From assembly GCF_008035925.1 (NCBI RefSeq), contig NZ_CP036264.1, positions 9,830,123-9,894,122 of the forward strand: DNA of 64,000 bases, given 5' to 3'. The notes beneath the pieces were generated by a model that saw nothing but the letters and a program-made list of their open reading frames with translations, searched no databases and was not told the DNA's origin. Below are positions 4,152 through 44,897 of this stretch, in pieces. The position numbers and the translations under genes are program-made. The stretch comes from Stieleria maiorica. GTDB lineage: Bacteria; Planctomycetota; Planctomycetia; Pirellulales; Pirellulaceae. Position 1 is the first letter of the stretch. Each line of letters starts with the position of its first letter.

Positions 4152-4631
4152 TCAGCCGGTGGCAAACTGGTTGTCGTCGGCTTCCTGCAATAACTGGGTG
4201 ATGTCCTCGGCTGACTTGCTCTGTTTGAGAAATCGACAGAAGGTTTCGTCGCGCAACTGACGCGAGATGTTCTCCAATGCCCGCAGGTGATCGCCGGGGC
4301 GCTCCGGGGGGCTGATCAACAGGAAGAACAGCTGAACCCGTTCTCCGTCAAGTGAATCAAAGTCAACCCCTTCCTCGCTGACTCCGACGGTACCGACCAG
4401 CTTTTGCACGCTGGGGTGTTTGGTGTGCGGAACCGCGACGCCGCGACCGATGCCGGTCGAACCGAGTTCCTCACGCTTCATGATGGCGGCGATGATGTCG
4501 TCGCGCTGCTCCGCATCGATCTCGCCCGACTCAAGCAAACATTGAACGAGCTCTTCGATCGCTTGCTCTTTTGTCCGGGCCTTGAGTTCGGCCTTGATCG
4601 ACTGCGTACTGATGAAATCTGCAAACTTCAT
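4152..4631 (-). CDS. PTS EIIA component, PtsN/fructose type
   Basis: A single EIIA domain of 159 residues from ATG 4631 (MKFADFISTQSIKAELKART). The phosphorylatable His69 lies in GIGRGVAVPHTKHPSV, followed by VQLFFLLISPPERPGDHL, as in PtsN and fructose IIA proteins. It would receive phosphate from the neighbouring HPr. With no membrane IIC nearby, a PtsN-like regulatory role is inferred. An upstream GTG at 4667 would add 12 residues, but the family normally starts at the MKF position. HPF is just upstream, recalling the rpoN-hpf-ptsN order of proteobacteria, without rpoN in view. Confidence 0.9.
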   Translation of the reverse strand: MKFADFISTQSIKAELKARTKEQAIEELVQCLLESGEIDAEQRDDIIAAIMKREELGSTGIGRGVAVPHTKHPSVQKLVGTVGVSEEGVDFDSLDGERVQLFFLLISPPERPGDHLRALENISRQLRDETFCRFLKQSKSAEDITQLLQEADDNQFATG

Positions 4632-4694
4632 GGGGTGTGAATTTTCGTTGAGTGTATCGACAACCACGAGGCGCTCGACTGGTTCAAGAGCCGA

Positions 4695-16202: not shown

Positions 16203-18725
16203 ATGCTGGAATTCACTGTTCTGTTCGCAGGTACTGTTTTGACTGCTGCTCTGATTCGGGCGTGCTCCTGCGACACACCATTCCGCACGCATTTCCGCAC
16301 ACTCTTGATCGTCTTGGCGGTCTCGTTGGCGTGCTGCCCGATGACGGTGATGGCGCTAGAAAGTGAAGCTGCGACCGCCGTCGAAGTGACCCGCACGTCG
16401 GCCGGCGAAGAGGGACCATCAGCGTCCGCGACACCTGCGGCCACGCCAACACCCGCCGCAAACGTCGATGCTGCCTCCGAAGGCGGCGTGCCTTGGATCG
16501 CTTACCTGATTCCGCTGTTCGGTCTCGCCGGCCTCGGATTCACGTTTTGGAAAACCAGCTGGGTCGGACAACAGGAGGTCGGCGGAGAAAAGATGGCGCG
16601 GATCGCGGCCAACATCTCCGAAGGTGCGATGTCGTTCTTGAAGGCCGAGTACTCGATTCTGGCGGTGTTCGTCATCGGCGTGGCGTGTTTGCTCGGCTAC
16701 GCCGGCAGCACACAAGGCGAATCGTCGTCCCCGTTGGTCGCGCTGTCGTTTGCCTCCGGCGCGATCTGTTCGGCGCTGGCGGGGTTCATCGGGATGACGG
16801 TGGCCACCAAAGCCAACGTGCGGACGACCAACGCGGCCCAGACCAGCCTGGGAAAGGCCTTGGAAGTCGCTTTTGCCGGCGGCAGCGTGATGGGGATGGG
16901 CGTGGTCGGTCTGGGCGTACTCGGATTGAGCATCTTATTCGTGGTTTACGCCAGCCTGTTTGGACTGGACACTCAAGCCAGCCTGACGCGCGTCATCACC
17001 GTACTGACCGGATTCTCCTTTGGTGCGTCCTCGATCGCGTTGTTTGCCCGCGTCGGCGGCGGGATTTATACGAAAGCCGCCGACGTCGGCGCCGATCTGG
17101 TCGGCAAGGTTGAAGCCGGGATCCCCGAAGACCACCCGCTTAATCCGGCCACGATCGCCGACAACGTCGGCGACAACGTCGGCGACGTCGCCGGCATGGG
17201 AGCGGACCTGTTTGAGTCCTACGTGGGGTCGATCATCGGCACGATGGTGTTGGGCGCAGCGTTTTTCACCGTCTTCAACGAATCCGGCCTGGATGACTTC
17301 GGCGGCTTGTCGGCCGTCCTGCTACCGTTGGTCCTGGCCGGCGTCGGCATTCTCACCTCGGTCGCCGGCACGTTCTTTGTCAAAGTGAAAGAAGGCGGGA
17401 ACCCGCATCACGCGCTCAATCTCGGCGAATTCGGATCGGCAGCGATCCTGTTGGTGCTGACCTACGCGATCATCAAATTCATGCTGCCTGCCAGCTGGAC
17501 CGTCGGTGAAGGCGAGGCCGCATTTGTTTACACCAGCAGCGGCGTATTCTTCGCGATTCTGTTCGGATTGGCGGCCGGACTGGGGATCGGCAAGATCACC
17601 GAGTACTACACCGGAACGGGCACGCGGCCGGTCACTTCGATCGTGCGACAGTCGGTCACCGGGCCGGCCACGACGATCATTTCCGGTCTGGGTGTCGGCA
17701 TGATGTCGACCGCGATTCCGATCCTGATCATCGCCGCGGCGATCATCGGTGCCTACGCGATGGCCGGGCTGTACGGGATCGCGATCGCCGCGGTCGGCAT
17801 GCTCTCCAACACCGGCATCCAACTGGCCGTCGACGCCTACGGACCGATCTCGGACAACGCCGGCGGGATCGCCGAGATGTCGGAATTGCCTGCGGAGGTT
17901 CGCGAGCGCACCGACAAACTCGACGCCGTCGGCAACACCACCGCGGCGATCGGAAAAGGGTTCGCCATCGGTTCGGCCGCACTGACCGCGCTGGCGCTGT
18001 TCGCCGCCTTCATCACCGCCTACAACGCGACCCATGTCGAAACGCCGATCGTGTCGATCAGCATCACCAATCCCTACGTGATGGCGTCGCTGTTTGTCGG
18101 TGCGATGTTGCCGTTCCTGTTCTCGGCGCTGTCGATGAACGCCGTCGGCCGCGCCGCGATGCGGATGATCGAGGAAGTGCGTCGACAATTCAACGACATC
18201 CCCGAACTGAAGGCGGGGCTGAAGGCCATGAATGACAACGAGGGGAAACCGCTGGAAGAATGGTCCCAGGCCGACCAGGCGACGTTCCAAGCCGCCGACG
18301 GCAAGGCCGAGTATGGCAAGTGCGTCGCGATCTCCACCCGGGCTTCGATTCGCGAGATGATCGTTCCCGGTTTGGTCGCGGTGTTGGTTCCGGTCGGCTT
18401 CGGTTTCGTGCCCAAGTGGGTCGGGTTACCGGGCAACACCAACGCGTTGATGTTGGGCGGTTTGCTCGCCGGGGTGACGGTCAGCGGCGTCTTGATGGCG
18501 CTGTTCCAATCCAACGCCGGCGGTGCCTGGGACAACGCCAAAAAGATGATCGAAGAAGGCTACGACGTGAGCGGCCAGCGGTTGGTCAAAGGCAGCGACG
18601 CCCACAAAGCAGCCGTCGTCGGTGACACCGTCGGCGACCCCTTCAAAGACACCTCGGGACCGTCGCTGAACATCCTGTTGAAACTGATGAGCGTCGTCGC
18701 CCTCGTGATCGCCTCGCTGATCTGA
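16203..18725 (+). CDS. hppA: Membrane-bound ion-translocating pyrophosphatase
   Basis: The 840-residue integral membrane protein couples pyrophosphate hydrolysis to H+ or Na+ export. The substrate site is clear: [20 protein letters not shown], then [20 protein letters not shown] and [12 protein letters not shown]. The later block [20 protein letters not shown] has Ala where K+-independent enzymes have Lys, so the K+-dependent class is inferred. About 90 extra N-terminal residues, with a signal-like segment and an Ala/Pro/Thr-rich linker ([20 protein letters not shown]), precede the usual first membrane helix. An AAGGAAC site precedes the ATG. H+ versus Na+ use is not decided here. Confidence 0.95.
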
Positions 18726-18731
18726 AGGCCA

Positions 18732-19351
18732 CGCCGCGGAAACCGCCAAGGTCTTCGGCACGCCGCACGTCGGCCGCGTTGCCGCAGAAAGCGAAACTCT
18801 ACGCGAGTTCCGCTACGACCGTGACCAATCAATCCAAACGTAGCGGAAACCGCCAAGGTTTTCGGCTCGCCGCACGTCGGCGGCGTTACCGCCGGAAGCG
18901 AAACTCTTCGCGAGTTCCGCTACGATCGTGACCAATCAAATCAACCGTAGCGGAAACCGCCAAGGTTTTCGGCTCGCCGCACGTCGGCCGCGTTACCGCC
19001 GAAAGCGAAACTCTTCGCGAGTTCCGCTACGATCGTGACCAATCAAATCAACCGTAGCGGAAACCGCCAAGGTTTTCGGCACGCCGCACGTCGGCCGCGT
19101 TACCGCCGGAAGCGAAACTCTTCGCGAGTTCCGCTACGATCGTGACCAATCAATCCAACCGTAGCGGAAACCGCCAAGGTTTTCGGCTCGCCGCACGTCG
19201 GCCGCGTTACCGCCGAAAGCGAAACTCTTCGCGAGTTCCGCTACGATCGTGACCAATCAATCCAAACGTAGCGGAAACCGCAAAGGTTTTCGGCACGCCG
19301 CACGTCGGCGGCGTTACTGCAGAAAGCGAAACTCTACGCGAGTTCCGCTAC
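18732..19351. repeat. BIME array: six 107-bp REP/inverted-REP units
   Basis: Units start at 18732, 18839, 18946, 19053, 19160 and 19267, exactly 107 bases apart. Each has a REP, GTAG followed by stem CGGAAACC, loop GCCAA, stem GGTTTTCG, then about 34 spacer bases. An inverted REP follows, whose reverse complement reads GTAG, CGGAACTC, GCGAA, GAGTTTCG. A linker with GTGACCAATCAA completes the unit. The first unit has a damaged left foot (CGCCGCGG). The GTAG-plus-hairpin form is the recognition unit of RAYT transposases, and such a gene follows directly. Confidence 0.9.
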
Positions 19352-19395
19352 GATTGCGCGGTCAACTGAGCACGCTACGGGGCAAAACGCGATCG

Positions 19396-19983
19396 ATGAA
19401 CAAACACAAGCAACGATTGAAACGCCTTCCGCCCGAATACTATCGTGGTCTTGCCTGGGTTCATTGGACGATGACCATCGAAGATCGGCGTACCGGCTGG
19501 CTTGACGGTCGATTCTTGTACAAGTTTCGAGAAATCCTCACTCATGCCGCGTTTTGCGATGCGTTGGCCTGCCCGATTTTCTGTCTGATGCCGGACCACA
19601 TCCATCTGCTTTGTTGCGGTCTGACCGACAAGACAGACCAGCGTCACGCCATTCAGCGGCTTCGAAAAGACACGAACGAGTGTTTAAAGCGGATCGGATT
19701 CTTATTTCAACGGCAGGCTTACGACCATGTCTTGAAGGATCATGAACTCGAGCGAGACGCAATCGAATCGATGGTCGAGTACATTGCCAGAAATCCAGAA
19801 CGAAAGGAGCTCGTGCCGGTCGATGCATTTGCGACCTACGCGTTTACCGGCTGTCTGATCCCCGGATATCCTCAAATGAAGCTATTCCAAGCGGACAGCT
19901 GGGATCGAATTTGGCGTACGATTGCATTTCTTAAGCGTACGGAGTGTTTTCGCCTTCCCGACCCAAAGTATCAAAAACCGTAG
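19396..19983 (+). CDS. REP-associated tyrosine transposase (RAYT, Y1/HUH family)
   Basis: The 195-residue product starts MNKHKQRLKRLPPEYYRGLA and has the HUH motif in CPIFCLMPDHIHLLCCGL. The catalytic Tyr is likely in the MVEYIARNPERKELV helix, where RAYTs have Y-x-x-x-N-P. These single-strand DNA transposases bind REP hairpins with a GTAG foot, and matching REPs lie on both sides of this gene. The stop codon TAG (19981-19983) is the TAG of the GTAG foot of the downstream REP, so the coding end is built from the repeat. ATG 19396 is chosen because the longer frame from 19249 only translates the repeat array. Confidence 0.9.
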   Translation: MNKHKQRLKRLPPEYYRGLAWVHWTMTIEDRRTGWLDGRFLYKFREILTHAAFCDALACPIFCLMPDHIHLLCCGLTDKTDQRHAIQRLRKDTNECLKRIGFLFQRQAYDHVLKDHELERDAIESMVEYIARNPERKELVPVDAFATYAFTGCLIPGYPQMKLFQADSWDRIWRTIAFLKRTECFRLPDPKYQKP

Positions 19984-20128
19984 CGGAAACCGCCAAGGTT
20001 TTCGCCTCCCCACGCGCCGGCGTTGCCGCCGGAAAGCGAAACTCTTCGCGAGTTCCGCTACGGTCGTGACCAATCAAATCAACCGTAGCGGAAACCGCCA
20101 AGGTTTTCGCCTCCCCGCGCACACCACT
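19979..20128. repeat. Downstream BIME units after the RAYT gene
   Basis: One complete unit (19979-20083, 105 bases to the next start) and one partial unit (from 20084) repeat the GTAG hairpin of the upstream array. The spacer differs (CCTCCCC instead of GCTCGCC), showing a second subtype. The partial copy loses its inverted REP near 20128, just before the stop of the sialidase-like gene. Confidence 0.85.
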
Positions 20129-20154: not shown

Positions 20155-21561
20155 TCAGATCGTGTCGCCTTCGCGGCGTCCGCCGCCGTGGTCGCTGGGG
20201 CGGCTGACGATGCGGTTCAAGAAACTTTCCCCGTCGACGAGTTCGCCCGCCAGGATGTCGGCTTCGGTGATCTTGGACAAAAAGATGGTGTGCTGGCCGA
20301 TCGTGCCGCGGCCTTGGTCATAGACGATATAGATCGCCCCGTCCTTGCCCAGCGTCGCCGAAGGATAACTGATTTGACCGTCGTCGCACAAAAGCACCTT
20401 GTGCGAAAACGTCTTGCCGTCATCCTCGCTCAAGTAGGCCGTCATCCGCGTCCGCGCCGTCTTGTGTTTGGTCAGCTCGCGTTGTTGACCGTTTTCGTCG
20501 GTGTAGTGGTAGACCCGCTTGCCGCCGTCTTCTTTCATCTGGACGTCGTTGGCGACCAACAAGACGCGTCCCGAAGGCAATGTTTTGAGGATGCATTTGG
20601 TATTGATCGAAAACTGCATCGGGTAATAACCGCCCAGTTTCCAGGTCCGGCCGCCGTCGAAAGATTCGGCAGACTTCTGTCCTTCCTTGGCGCGATAGAA
20701 CGTGAACAGGCTGCCGTCTTTTCGGATGATCGGCATTTGCTCGGCAAACACCGCGTCATTGTCGATCGGAAACTCGGACACAAAGATCGGCGAGCCGTCG
20801 ACGGCTTCTTTCAGAAAACGAATTCGAACCTTGTCGCGTTTGCCGACCAGTTTGAAGTCATCCATCGAGCGTAGGATCGTGCCGTCGGGAAAAACAAGCG
20901 GCTTCATGACGGAGATGTTCTTGTTGCCCAATAAGCGCGGAGCGCTCCATTCGGTGTGTTCGTTTTCCGCATCCAGCATGGTGAACTCCCACGCCGAGGA
21001 GGCGAATTCATCTTGCCCCTTGAAATCGATGTTCCGCAGGCCGATGAAGCGAACCTTTCCCTCGGGGTCTTTCCACAACATCGGATCGGATGCTCCACCG
21101 CCCAGCAATTCACTCGGGTCGAAGACAAAGACCTCTTTCCAAGTTTTGCCATCGTCGGCCGAAGTCGAGATGACCGAGAATTGATCGTTGTGGTACGGCG
21201 CGCGTTCGGCTTGGACGTTGGAACCGAACCAGGTCGCCCAAAGTCGGCCGCCCTCGGAGATTTCGACCTGCGGGCAGCCCTGAAAAAGCCTCAAGTTGAT
21301 GCGGTGCTTGTGGTAAGGCTTTTGTTCTTTGTCATTAATCTTGGTCAACGCCGGCGGCGTCTTGCCCGTGATGCCGTAGGGGAACGTTTGCGAAACGTGG
21401 TCCGATGGCGGCATCGTGGTGTCACCCAGGACCGAAACCGGATTCACGGTTTGGGCGCACACCGTCGCACCGAAACCGGAGAACAGACCGGCAAAGAGAA
21501 CGACGGCGCAAGCGGTCAAGGATTGAACGGTACGGAGAATCAGTTGAATTTGCTGGGGCAT
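20155..21561 (-). CDS. Secreted sialidase-like (BNR/Asp-box) protein
   Basis: The 468-residue product has an N-terminal signal segment (ACAVVLFAGLFSGFGATVCA) and several Asp-box repeats: STSADDGKTWKEVFV, ESFDGGRTWKLGGYYPM and LSEDDGKTFSHKVLL. This is the six-blade propeller of the exo-sialidase superfamily. Members in planctomycetes include glycoside hydrolases and proteins without proven activity, so sialic acid as substrate is not certain. It is the last gene of a minus-strand run with a sulfatase (63 bp upstream) and an SGNH hydrolase, suggesting polysaccharide breakdown. Confidence 0.85.
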   Translation of the reverse strand: MPQQIQLILRTVQSLTACAVVLFAGLFSGFGATVCAQTVNPVSVLGDTTMPPSDHVSQTFPYGITGKTPPALTKINDKEQKPYHKHRINLRLFQGCPQVEISEGGRLWATWFGSNVQAERAPYHNDQFSVISTSADDGKTWKEVFVFDPSELLGGGASDPMLWKDPEGKVRFIGLRNIDFKGQDEFASSAWEFTMLDAENEHTEWSAPRLLGNKNISVMKPLVFPDGTILRSMDDFKLVGKRDKVRIRFLKEAVDGSPIFVSEFPIDNDAVFAEQMPIIRKDGSLFTFYRAKEGQKSAESFDGGRTWKLGGYYPMQFSINTKCILKTLPSGRVLLVANDVQMKEDGGKRVYHYTDENGQQRELTKHKTARTRMTAYLSEDDGKTFSHKVLLCDDGQISYPSATLGKDGAIYIVYDQGRGTIGQHTIFLSKITEADILAGELVDGESFLNRIVSRPSDHGGGRREGDTI

Positions 21562-44690: not shown

Positions 44691-44720
44691 GAAAAAACTT
44701 CAAAGACAAAGATACGAGTT

Positions 44721-44868
44721 GGTGTTTAGCCATGAGGCGATCCCCCTCGCTGCGGAGCAGCGACCGAGTGCGGCTAAAGCCTGGACACCAGCGCAAGTTG
44801 GTGTTTAGCCTTTAGGCGATTCCCCACGCTGCGGAGCAGCGACCGAGTGCGGCTAAAGCCTGGACACC
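44721..44868. repeat. Two ~69-bp palindromic elements, one with an empty insertion site
   Basis: Copies at 44721-44789 and 44800-44868 begin GGTGTTTAGCC and end CGGCTAAAGCCTGGACACC; each has a central CGCTGC-GGA-GCAGCG hairpin. The second contains CCTTTAGG (44809-44816), the reverse complement of the CCTAAAGG that flanks the ~180-bp element elsewhere. A third, truncated copy starts near 44875 (GGTTCGTGTCTAGCC). Confidence 0.8.
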
Positions 44869-44897
44869 AACGCTGGTTCGTGTCTAGCCCCCATGTG

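Follow-up and report, generated by a model that had tools for sequence, protein, structure and literature searches.

What is a gene for a REP-associated tyrosine transposase (RAYT) doing amid repetitive extragenic palindromic (REP) sequences in a planctomycete, and is such a system still on the move? The question is raised by a locus of Stieleria maiorica within a 64-kb stretch of DNA (the window; positions 9830123-9894122 of the single-contig 9.894 Mb genome, G000). A preliminary description placed the RAYT gene between six 107-bp units of REP and inverted REP upstream and 1.5 units downstream, and regarded the ensemble as currently or recently mobile. The arrangement is confirmed here by a tandem repeat search, a REP pattern and an intact reading frame; the claim of mobility stands in part. 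The locus is quite probably a REPtron of a divergent RAYT clade, with ancestral spread of paired REPs (REPINs), rare dispersal since, homogenisation of the local array and a RAYT that is prone to be lost.

Anatomy of the locus

Tandem Repeats Finder (TRF) detected a repeat at 18736-19354 with a period of 107, 5.8 copies and 94% matches. With up to three mismatches allowed, the REP pattern matches 15 times in the 64 kb, against 0.03 expected from shuffles, and every match falls between 18733 and 20109. Six on the plus and six on the minus strand lie upstream of the gene and three downstream (+19980, -20037, +20085), that is, 6 and 1.5 units, in keeping with the interval first proposed (18732-20128). 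The features are as follows (open reading frame, ORF; bacterial interspersed mosaic element, BIME).

18733..18757, plus strand: degenerate first REP, type B', foot lost (3 mismatches to the REP pattern)
18736..19354, plus strand: 107-bp BIME array upstream of the RAYT gene, 5.8 units, REP B' on plus and REP A on minus (TRF, repeat search, REP pattern)
18840..18864, also 18947, 19054, 19161 and 19268, plus strand: REP B', GTAG-CGGAAACC-GCCAA-GGTTTTCG (REP pattern)
18792..18816, also 18899, 19006, 19113, 19220 and 19327, minus strand: REP A, GTAG-CGGAACTC-GCGTA-GAGTTTCG (REP pattern)
19396..19983, plus strand: RAYT gene, 195 aa (HUH motif PDHIH with H68 and H70, tyrosine motif YIARNP with Y129)
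19980..20004, plus strand: downstream REP B', foot contains the RAYT stop (REP pattern)
20037..20061, minus strand: downstream REP A (REP pattern)
20085..20109, plus strand: last downstream REP B' (REP pattern)
16203..18725, plus strand: upstream neighbour, synteny anchor (ORF, orthologues in sister genomes)
20155..21561, minus strand: downstream neighbour, synteny anchor (ORF, 3' end 92% alike over 372 bp in the sister species G013)

The array thus sits between two convergent ORFs, which we take to encode an HppA-like membrane pyrophosphatase (16203..18725) and a sialidase-like protein (20155..21561). The uniform foot, stem and loop claimed for all REPs hold for 14 of the 15, in which a GTAG foot precedes a hairpin with a 5-nt loop and a stem of 8 bp, one of them a G-U pair. 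The exception, the first REP (18733, GCCGCGGAAACC...), has lost its foot and shows one stem mismatch. In particular, the plus-strand type (B') pairs CGGAAACC with GGTTTTCG around the loop GCCAA (GCAAA in one), and the minus-strand type (A) pairs CGGAACTC with GAGTTTCG around GCGAA or GCGTA. Folded as DNA, both types form this hairpin, with z values against shuffles of -2.1 and -1.6 (-2.5 and -2.3 for the whole unit). Because this is only modestly better than shuffles, the case for the hairpin rests on covariation. The RAYT frame (19396-19983) runs uninterrupted from ATG to TAG, and its stop (19981-19983) coincides with the TAG of the GTAG foot that opens the REP at 19980. The same overlap is seen at three related loci (L037, L039, L040), and REPs directly behind rayt stops are already known (PMC2817692).

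The RAYT protein

The residues H68, H70 and Y129 are invariant in 19 of 19 clade proteins and align with the motifs LPEHMH and VDYIYINP of the Escherichia coli protein TnpA-REP (4er8); they would be the catalytic residues. TnpA-REP is also the closest solved structure, leading by 3.6 Z units, and has the Y1 fold. Together with the flanking REPs, the HUH and tyrosine motifs and this structural match bear out the description of the protein as a RAYT with its own REPs and BIMEs. The name depends on these three lines of evidence because the curated model NF047646 of NCBIfam scores 34.3 bits (E 1.8e-8), below its 80-bit cut-off. That score counts against the assignment, as do the 18.1 bits obtained with Pfam Y1_Tnp (cut-off 23 bits) and the fact that neither a target-site signature nor a cleavage site has been established. 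The RAYT clade is divergent and lies outside the trusted range of NF047646. A PHROGs search with the RAYT returned no match, and the single sequence searched against the PDB returned four chance-like matches, none of them a transposase.

The Y1 fold is common to the IS608 and ISDra2 transposases, as would be expected if the gene belonged to an ordinary IS200/IS605 insertion sequence. This origin is extremely improbable, and it was discarded on copy number: several near-identical copies with their own ends were not seen. The RAYT occurs once in the genome, where searching with this protein yielded just one further match, at 52%, which has an in-frame stop; moreover, it is flanked by REP arrays, and its best structural match is TnpA-REP by the margin given above. 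More distant RAYT-like genes are present in the genome (11 matches of NF047646). The likelihoods attached here and below to alternative explanations are not mutually exclusive.

Dispersed REPs and the age of their spread

The preliminary description had expected many dispersed units with the same foot if the system was mobile. Genome-wide, REPs with up to two mismatches were found at 338 sites, 14 of them at the locus (reversed-pattern control, 0), so the repeat is not confined to it; 253 REPs are exact. Forty-five dispersed loci were fetched, comprising the 25 best BLAST matches to the array (L006-L030, hence biased towards it) and 20 loci (L104-L123, 0-3.6 Mb) that were hand-picked among the first 100 exact sites. 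Of the 88 REPs in 46 sampled loci, 83 are paired at the four stem positions left free by the pattern (shuffled mean 36.9, maximum 52). The main stem types are AGCC/GGCT (B, 37), ACTC/GAGT (A, 33) and ATTC/GAAT (A, 6). In the hand-picked loci, 11 of 13 facing neighbours join an A with a B, and a single REP was found at this stringency in 6 of the 20. The sampled dispersed REPs are thus mostly paired as REPINs of about 80 bp that contain two REP types. Of the eight occurrences of the B' form (AACC/GGTT) in the whole genome, seven belong to the locus; the remaining one lies at 1643558, where no partner REP was seen. REPs are also clustered in tandem at G000:C1:3671833-3672949, with seven REP A copies on one strand in steps of about 180 bp.

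The joined flanks of 18 dispersed loci (12 of the 20 hand-picked, 6 of the 25 BLAST-picked) were searched in three sister species (G013, G001, G012), and the matches were aligned. The flank query omitted L106, L113, L114, L116 and L119 (repetitive flanks or unclear bounds), L109, L115 and L123 (to limit element-borne loci) and 19 BLAST-picked loci (to limit length). The search scored 40 candidates per genome, and sites may have been missed because of this limit. As a measure of distance, the hppA end of G000 is 94% identical to that of G013 over 826 bp and 88% to those of G001 and G012. Both flanks were found in G013 for 15 loci (L107, L111 and L120 had no two clean flanks there); 14 of these hold a REPIN, with a recognisably shared spacer except at L006, where extra DNA lies inside the REPIN. 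At the sites that could be judged out of the 18, a REPIN is present in none of seven in G001 and none of six in G012. The contrast between 14/15 and 0/7 or 0/6 indicates that REPINs moved as units after the split from G001 and G012, mostly before that from G013. It suggests that most sampled dispersed copies are old, their spread mostly predating the separation of G000 and G013. Matches in G013 to one flank (query 4585-4680), considered as a spread of REPIN-bearing elements, were dropped, as they lie outside the REPIN.

For most sampled copies, the orthologous-site comparison rules out current mobility; "recently mobile" holds on the scale of species only. Moreover, the array is not a recent source of dispersed REPs, because its B' variant is found only once outside the locus. 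Several points weigh against an old spread with little since. One of the 15 loci (L121) has no REPIN in G013; the "empty" sites of G001 and G012 are not clean, being often occupied by 8 to 123 bases of other sequence; insertions shared with G013 are uninformative about activity at a very low rate; and the lone B' REP at 1643558 could reflect recent dispersal.

By analogy with its homologues, the RAYT would be an HUH single-tyrosine endonuclease and transferase of single-stranded DNA that recognises the GTAG foot and hairpin of REPs on one strand. In the ancestor of the species and its sister, it may have copied REPINs of about 80 bp, with REP A facing REP B, throughout the chromosome; since the split from the sister, dispersal would have been rare.

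The array without a RAYT in the sister species

Between the same two genes, G013 carries an uninterrupted array of 21 REPs (11 on minus, 10 on plus), and no trace of the RAYT was found at this locus by blastn. Since the G013 assembly consists of 270 contigs, absence of the gene from the species is not certain. Disruption of the RAYT frame in close relatives, which according to the preliminary description would speak against mobility, was not what was observed: in the closest relative, the gene was not found at all. The 1500 bases behind hppA hold no REP in G012 and G002 and one in G001; in G005 and G008 the contig stops after 188 and 513 bases, respectively, and these contain no REP.

Array units are 97% alike among the four compared upstream of the RAYT, 94% among nine in G013 and 82% between the two species; both arrays have therefore been homogenised since the split. 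Recombination or replication slippage may have multiplied and homogenised the direct BIME units. In the process, the B stem would have changed from AGCC/GGCT to AACC/GGTT, a compensatory replacement that reached each of the seven foot-bearing units of this type and amounts to an early "orthoswitch". With direct repeats flanking it, the RAYT gene would also be easy to lose by recombination, and the uninterrupted array of G013 fits such a loss. The REP numbers in the genus are as follows.

G000: 253 exact, 338 with up to two mismatches
G013: 471 exact, 601 with up to two mismatches
G009: 40 exact, 88 with up to two mismatches
G001: 12 exact, 89 with up to two mismatches
G008: 8 exact, 232 with up to two mismatches
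G012: 7 exact, 41 with up to two mismatches
G002: 6 exact, 49 with up to two mismatches
G005: 4 exact, 52 with up to two mismatches

The low share of exact REPs in G001, G008, G012, G002 and G005 may reflect decay or another consensus. The count in G013 sits awkwardly with rare dispersal after the split and with a RAYT-driven system. It exceeds that of G000 even though no such RAYT was found in G013, so the presence of the RAYT does not predict REP copy number, and part of the excess may be insertions made after the split.

The RAYT may have been gained here, by insertion or horizontal transfer into an existing REP array, instead of being lost in the sister; this is a tentative alternative of some weight, compatible with most of the preferred explanation. 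It draws on the RAYT-free array of G013 and on the distribution of relatives. Across the 14 genomes of the genus, relatives in other species do not exceed 57% identity (E<=1e-15), and the nearest relatives (67% and 64% identical) are found in two other genera beside other genes. Those relatives, however, carry the same CGGAA-type REPs, and the REPs of the window RAYT share their foot and stem type with the dispersed REPs of both species, which were presumably spread by a RAYT.

The RAYT clade and its REPs

At E<=1e-15, relatives were found in 16 of 117 near genomes, and a profile search found them in 10 of 392 genomes drawn from the phylum (G000 included in both). Most carriers have one copy per genome. 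A scan of named genomes added two relatives, both in Verrucomicrobiota-type metagenome-assembled genomes. The clade is patchily distributed. In another genus, the locus of the 64% identical relative (L040, G026:C10) has the same architecture, with about nine BIME units of 110 bp upstream of the gene and three downstream.

When 24 clade loci were searched for GTAG followed by 8-mer arms with a loop of 4 or 5 and at least 7 of 8 pairs, such REPs occurred at least twice in 18 of them (120 sites in total, compared with 0.07 per locus when flanks were shuffled); none were found in L050-L053, L055 and L056. At 6 or more of 8 pairs, at least one REP was found in 21 of the 24 loci and at least two in 19, with none in L051-L053 and one each in L050 and L055. 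The stem differs with the RAYT: it begins CGGAA- in the window and the two nearest relatives, other stems begin CTGG- or CTACC-/CCACC-, and that of the large sister group begins TGGA-. In a Mantel test with one hand-chosen REP per RAYT, covering 16 of the 19 RAYTs (L051-L053 lack REPs), REP stem and RAYT distance were correlated (r 0.53, 0/20000; r 0.36, 131/20000 after thinning of near-copies to 12); for the RAYT tree, 16 of 30 other loci had passed the motif filter. REP stems thus track the RAYT tree across the clade.

A second clade RAYT of G000 (L032, G000:C1:5558025-5558576), with CTACC-type REPs, has an in-frame stop, and the frame of its G013 orthologue (L043, G013:C112) is open; the two loci (5.56 Mb in G000) are 85.7% identical over 3559 aligned bases. 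With the status of the window RAYT and L032 reversed between the sisters, the intact RAYT of each is one that is broken or was not found in the other.

The dispersed REPs might also owe their spread to other RAYTs of the genus, 30 of which (L057-L086) were examined out of 123 NF047646 matches in 14 genomes. None of the 30 loci has a cluster of GTAGCGRAA, L059 and L063 have a single site, and many have quite different REPs; with 30 of 123 covered, another RAYT of the genus may still be the spreader. Other RAYT families with their own REP arrays were noted at L057-L061, L064, L066, L076 and L086. In particular, L057, L059 and L060 have GTAG GGCACGC TGT GCGTGCC in 26-bp steps, and L064 has a GTGG foot with GATAGGCT/AGCCTGTC.

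REPINs inside terminal inverted repeat elements

At 6 of the 20 hand-picked loci, the REPIN lies inside an element bounded by a terminal inverted repeat (TIR) of about 20 bp (TAGGCTTTGTCCCTAAACCC...GGGTTTAGGGACAAAGCCTA). Both ends are present in L105, L120 and L123 (imperfect in one of the three) and one end in L109, L111 and L115. Such elements, about 135 bp long, occur in G000 at 59.8 kb, 1.855 Mb, 3.562 Mb and elsewhere; their TIRs begin TAGGCTTTGTCCC (TAGGCTTCGTCCC in L123) and end in TA, and they look like miniature inverted-repeat transposable elements (MITEs) with REPIN cargo. The site of L105 is filled in G013 and element-free in G001 and G012. A second family of shared flanks, with a weaker inverted repeat, was recognised by eye at 10 of 45 loci; it is uncertain, as an exact search for its supposed end before the REP gave no match in 175 loci.

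Because some REPINs lie inside TIR elements, part of the REP spread may be due to another transposase. TIRs that consist of a degenerate REP and another hairpin have been reported in Pseudomonas (PMC3733652), and both flank families fit a transport of REPs as passengers of MITE-like elements. Such transport is nevertheless rather unlikely to account for part of the copies. The flanks look unrelated by eye at 12 of the 20 loci (14 when the second family is left aside), and REPINs without TIRs also vary in presence or absence between species.

At 44717-44889, the window contains 2.2 copies of a 79-bp repeat (AGTTGGTGTTTAGCC...GGACACCAACGCA); similar sequence was seen by eye in the flanks of the REP loci L109 and L116, perhaps representing another dispersed family.

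Possible constraint on REP arms

In 11 of the 14 loci shared by G000 and G013 (L105, L006 and L122 left out; changes unassigned to lineage), the two species differ at 10 of 550 REP arm positions, counting a gap, and at 24 of 288 spacer positions, with 100 mismatches in 1046 aligned positions of the adjoining 50 bp and 147 in 2174 of the next 100 bp. The arm difference is about one fifth of the raw spacer rate. Since arms picked in G000 hide changes on its own branch, half the spacer rate was taken as the yardstick; the arm difference remains below it, with 10 changes against 22.9 expected (Poisson 0.002). Gene conversion between REPs could also cause low arm divergence.

One reading of this low arm divergence combines an orthoswitch at its start with REP hairpins that serve the host without a RAYT and outlive the enzyme. 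It draws on the paired stem change in 7 of 7 foot-bearing B REPs near the gene, found once elsewhere, and on a sister with 471 exact REPs that apparently lacks the RAYT; it is put forward as a doubtful suggestion. A further proposal, which takes the array for an ordinary tandem repeat flanked by convergent genes (a terminator or supercoiling element) and the RAYT for a dead passenger, would agree with the slower change of REP arms than of spacers and with the retention of the array in G013, where the gene was not found. It is improbable, given the intact 195-aa frame with its HUH and tyrosine residues, the open frames of most clade members and REPs that vary with the protein.

Comparison with known systems

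The preliminary description considered such systems little described in planctomycetes. GTAG REPs have been reported in Planctomycetes and the Planctomycetes-Verrucomicrobia-Chlamydiae (PVC) group (PMC3733652). The coupling of RAYTs with REPs (PMC2817692), RAYT loss with REPs left behind together with the orthoswitch (PMC3686654), and E. coli without a RAYT that carry REPINs (PMC8049555) are likewise in print. In the literature covered, which included few subscription papers, no paper was found that treats RAYTs of this genus or planctomycete TIR elements with REPINs inside. The RAYT and REP papers found deal mostly with Proteobacteria; the locus and its relatives form a further set of RAYT/REP pairs. 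About a dozen stems share one 8-bp scaffold, and recognition rules might be read from these pairs. Moreover, a species pair with and without the RAYT, having many REPs at shared sites, turns REP decay versus host retention into a testable question.

The window RAYT shares with E. coli TnpA-REP (RAYT group 2, 4er8; Y and Z REPs, BIMEs; PMC8266576) the HUH motif and one tyrosine, the GTAG foot, REP pairs of two types and a REP-flanked gene. In contrast to TnpA-REP, to which it is 15% identical, it has a longer C-terminal tail with a GCLxPGYPxL-like motif, and its REPs combine a 5-nt loop with a stem of 8 bp that includes a G-U pair and lacks the AA-GC bulge. The 8-bp stem behind GTAG is shared with group 3 RAYTs of Stenotrophomonas and Pseudomonas (REPtron Sm, 8-bp palindrome with a 3-nt loop; PMC8266576), whereas the loop here has 5 nt. 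Furthermore, the window protein has YIARNP and FQ/LQ, where YI[VI]ANP and WQ are listed for group 3 (PMC6006769). TnpA-Y1 class 3 of Planctomycetes is also an HUH Y1 protein from the same phylum, characterised by NHVH, YV[VI]xEQ and a CnGA foot (PMC6006769), in contrast to DHIH, YIARNP and GTAG in the window. The dispersed units resemble known REPINs in consisting of two inverted REPs and a variable spacer (PMC8049555); here, however, the two REPs differ in type and some lie inside a TIR element. Finally, as in the orthoswitch and RAYT-loss model of Nunvar et al. 2013 (PMC3686654), the RAYT-adjacent REP differs from an older dispersed class, and REPs remain where the RAYT is gone; that model expects REPs to decay without the RAYT, whereas G013 keeps many exact REPs.
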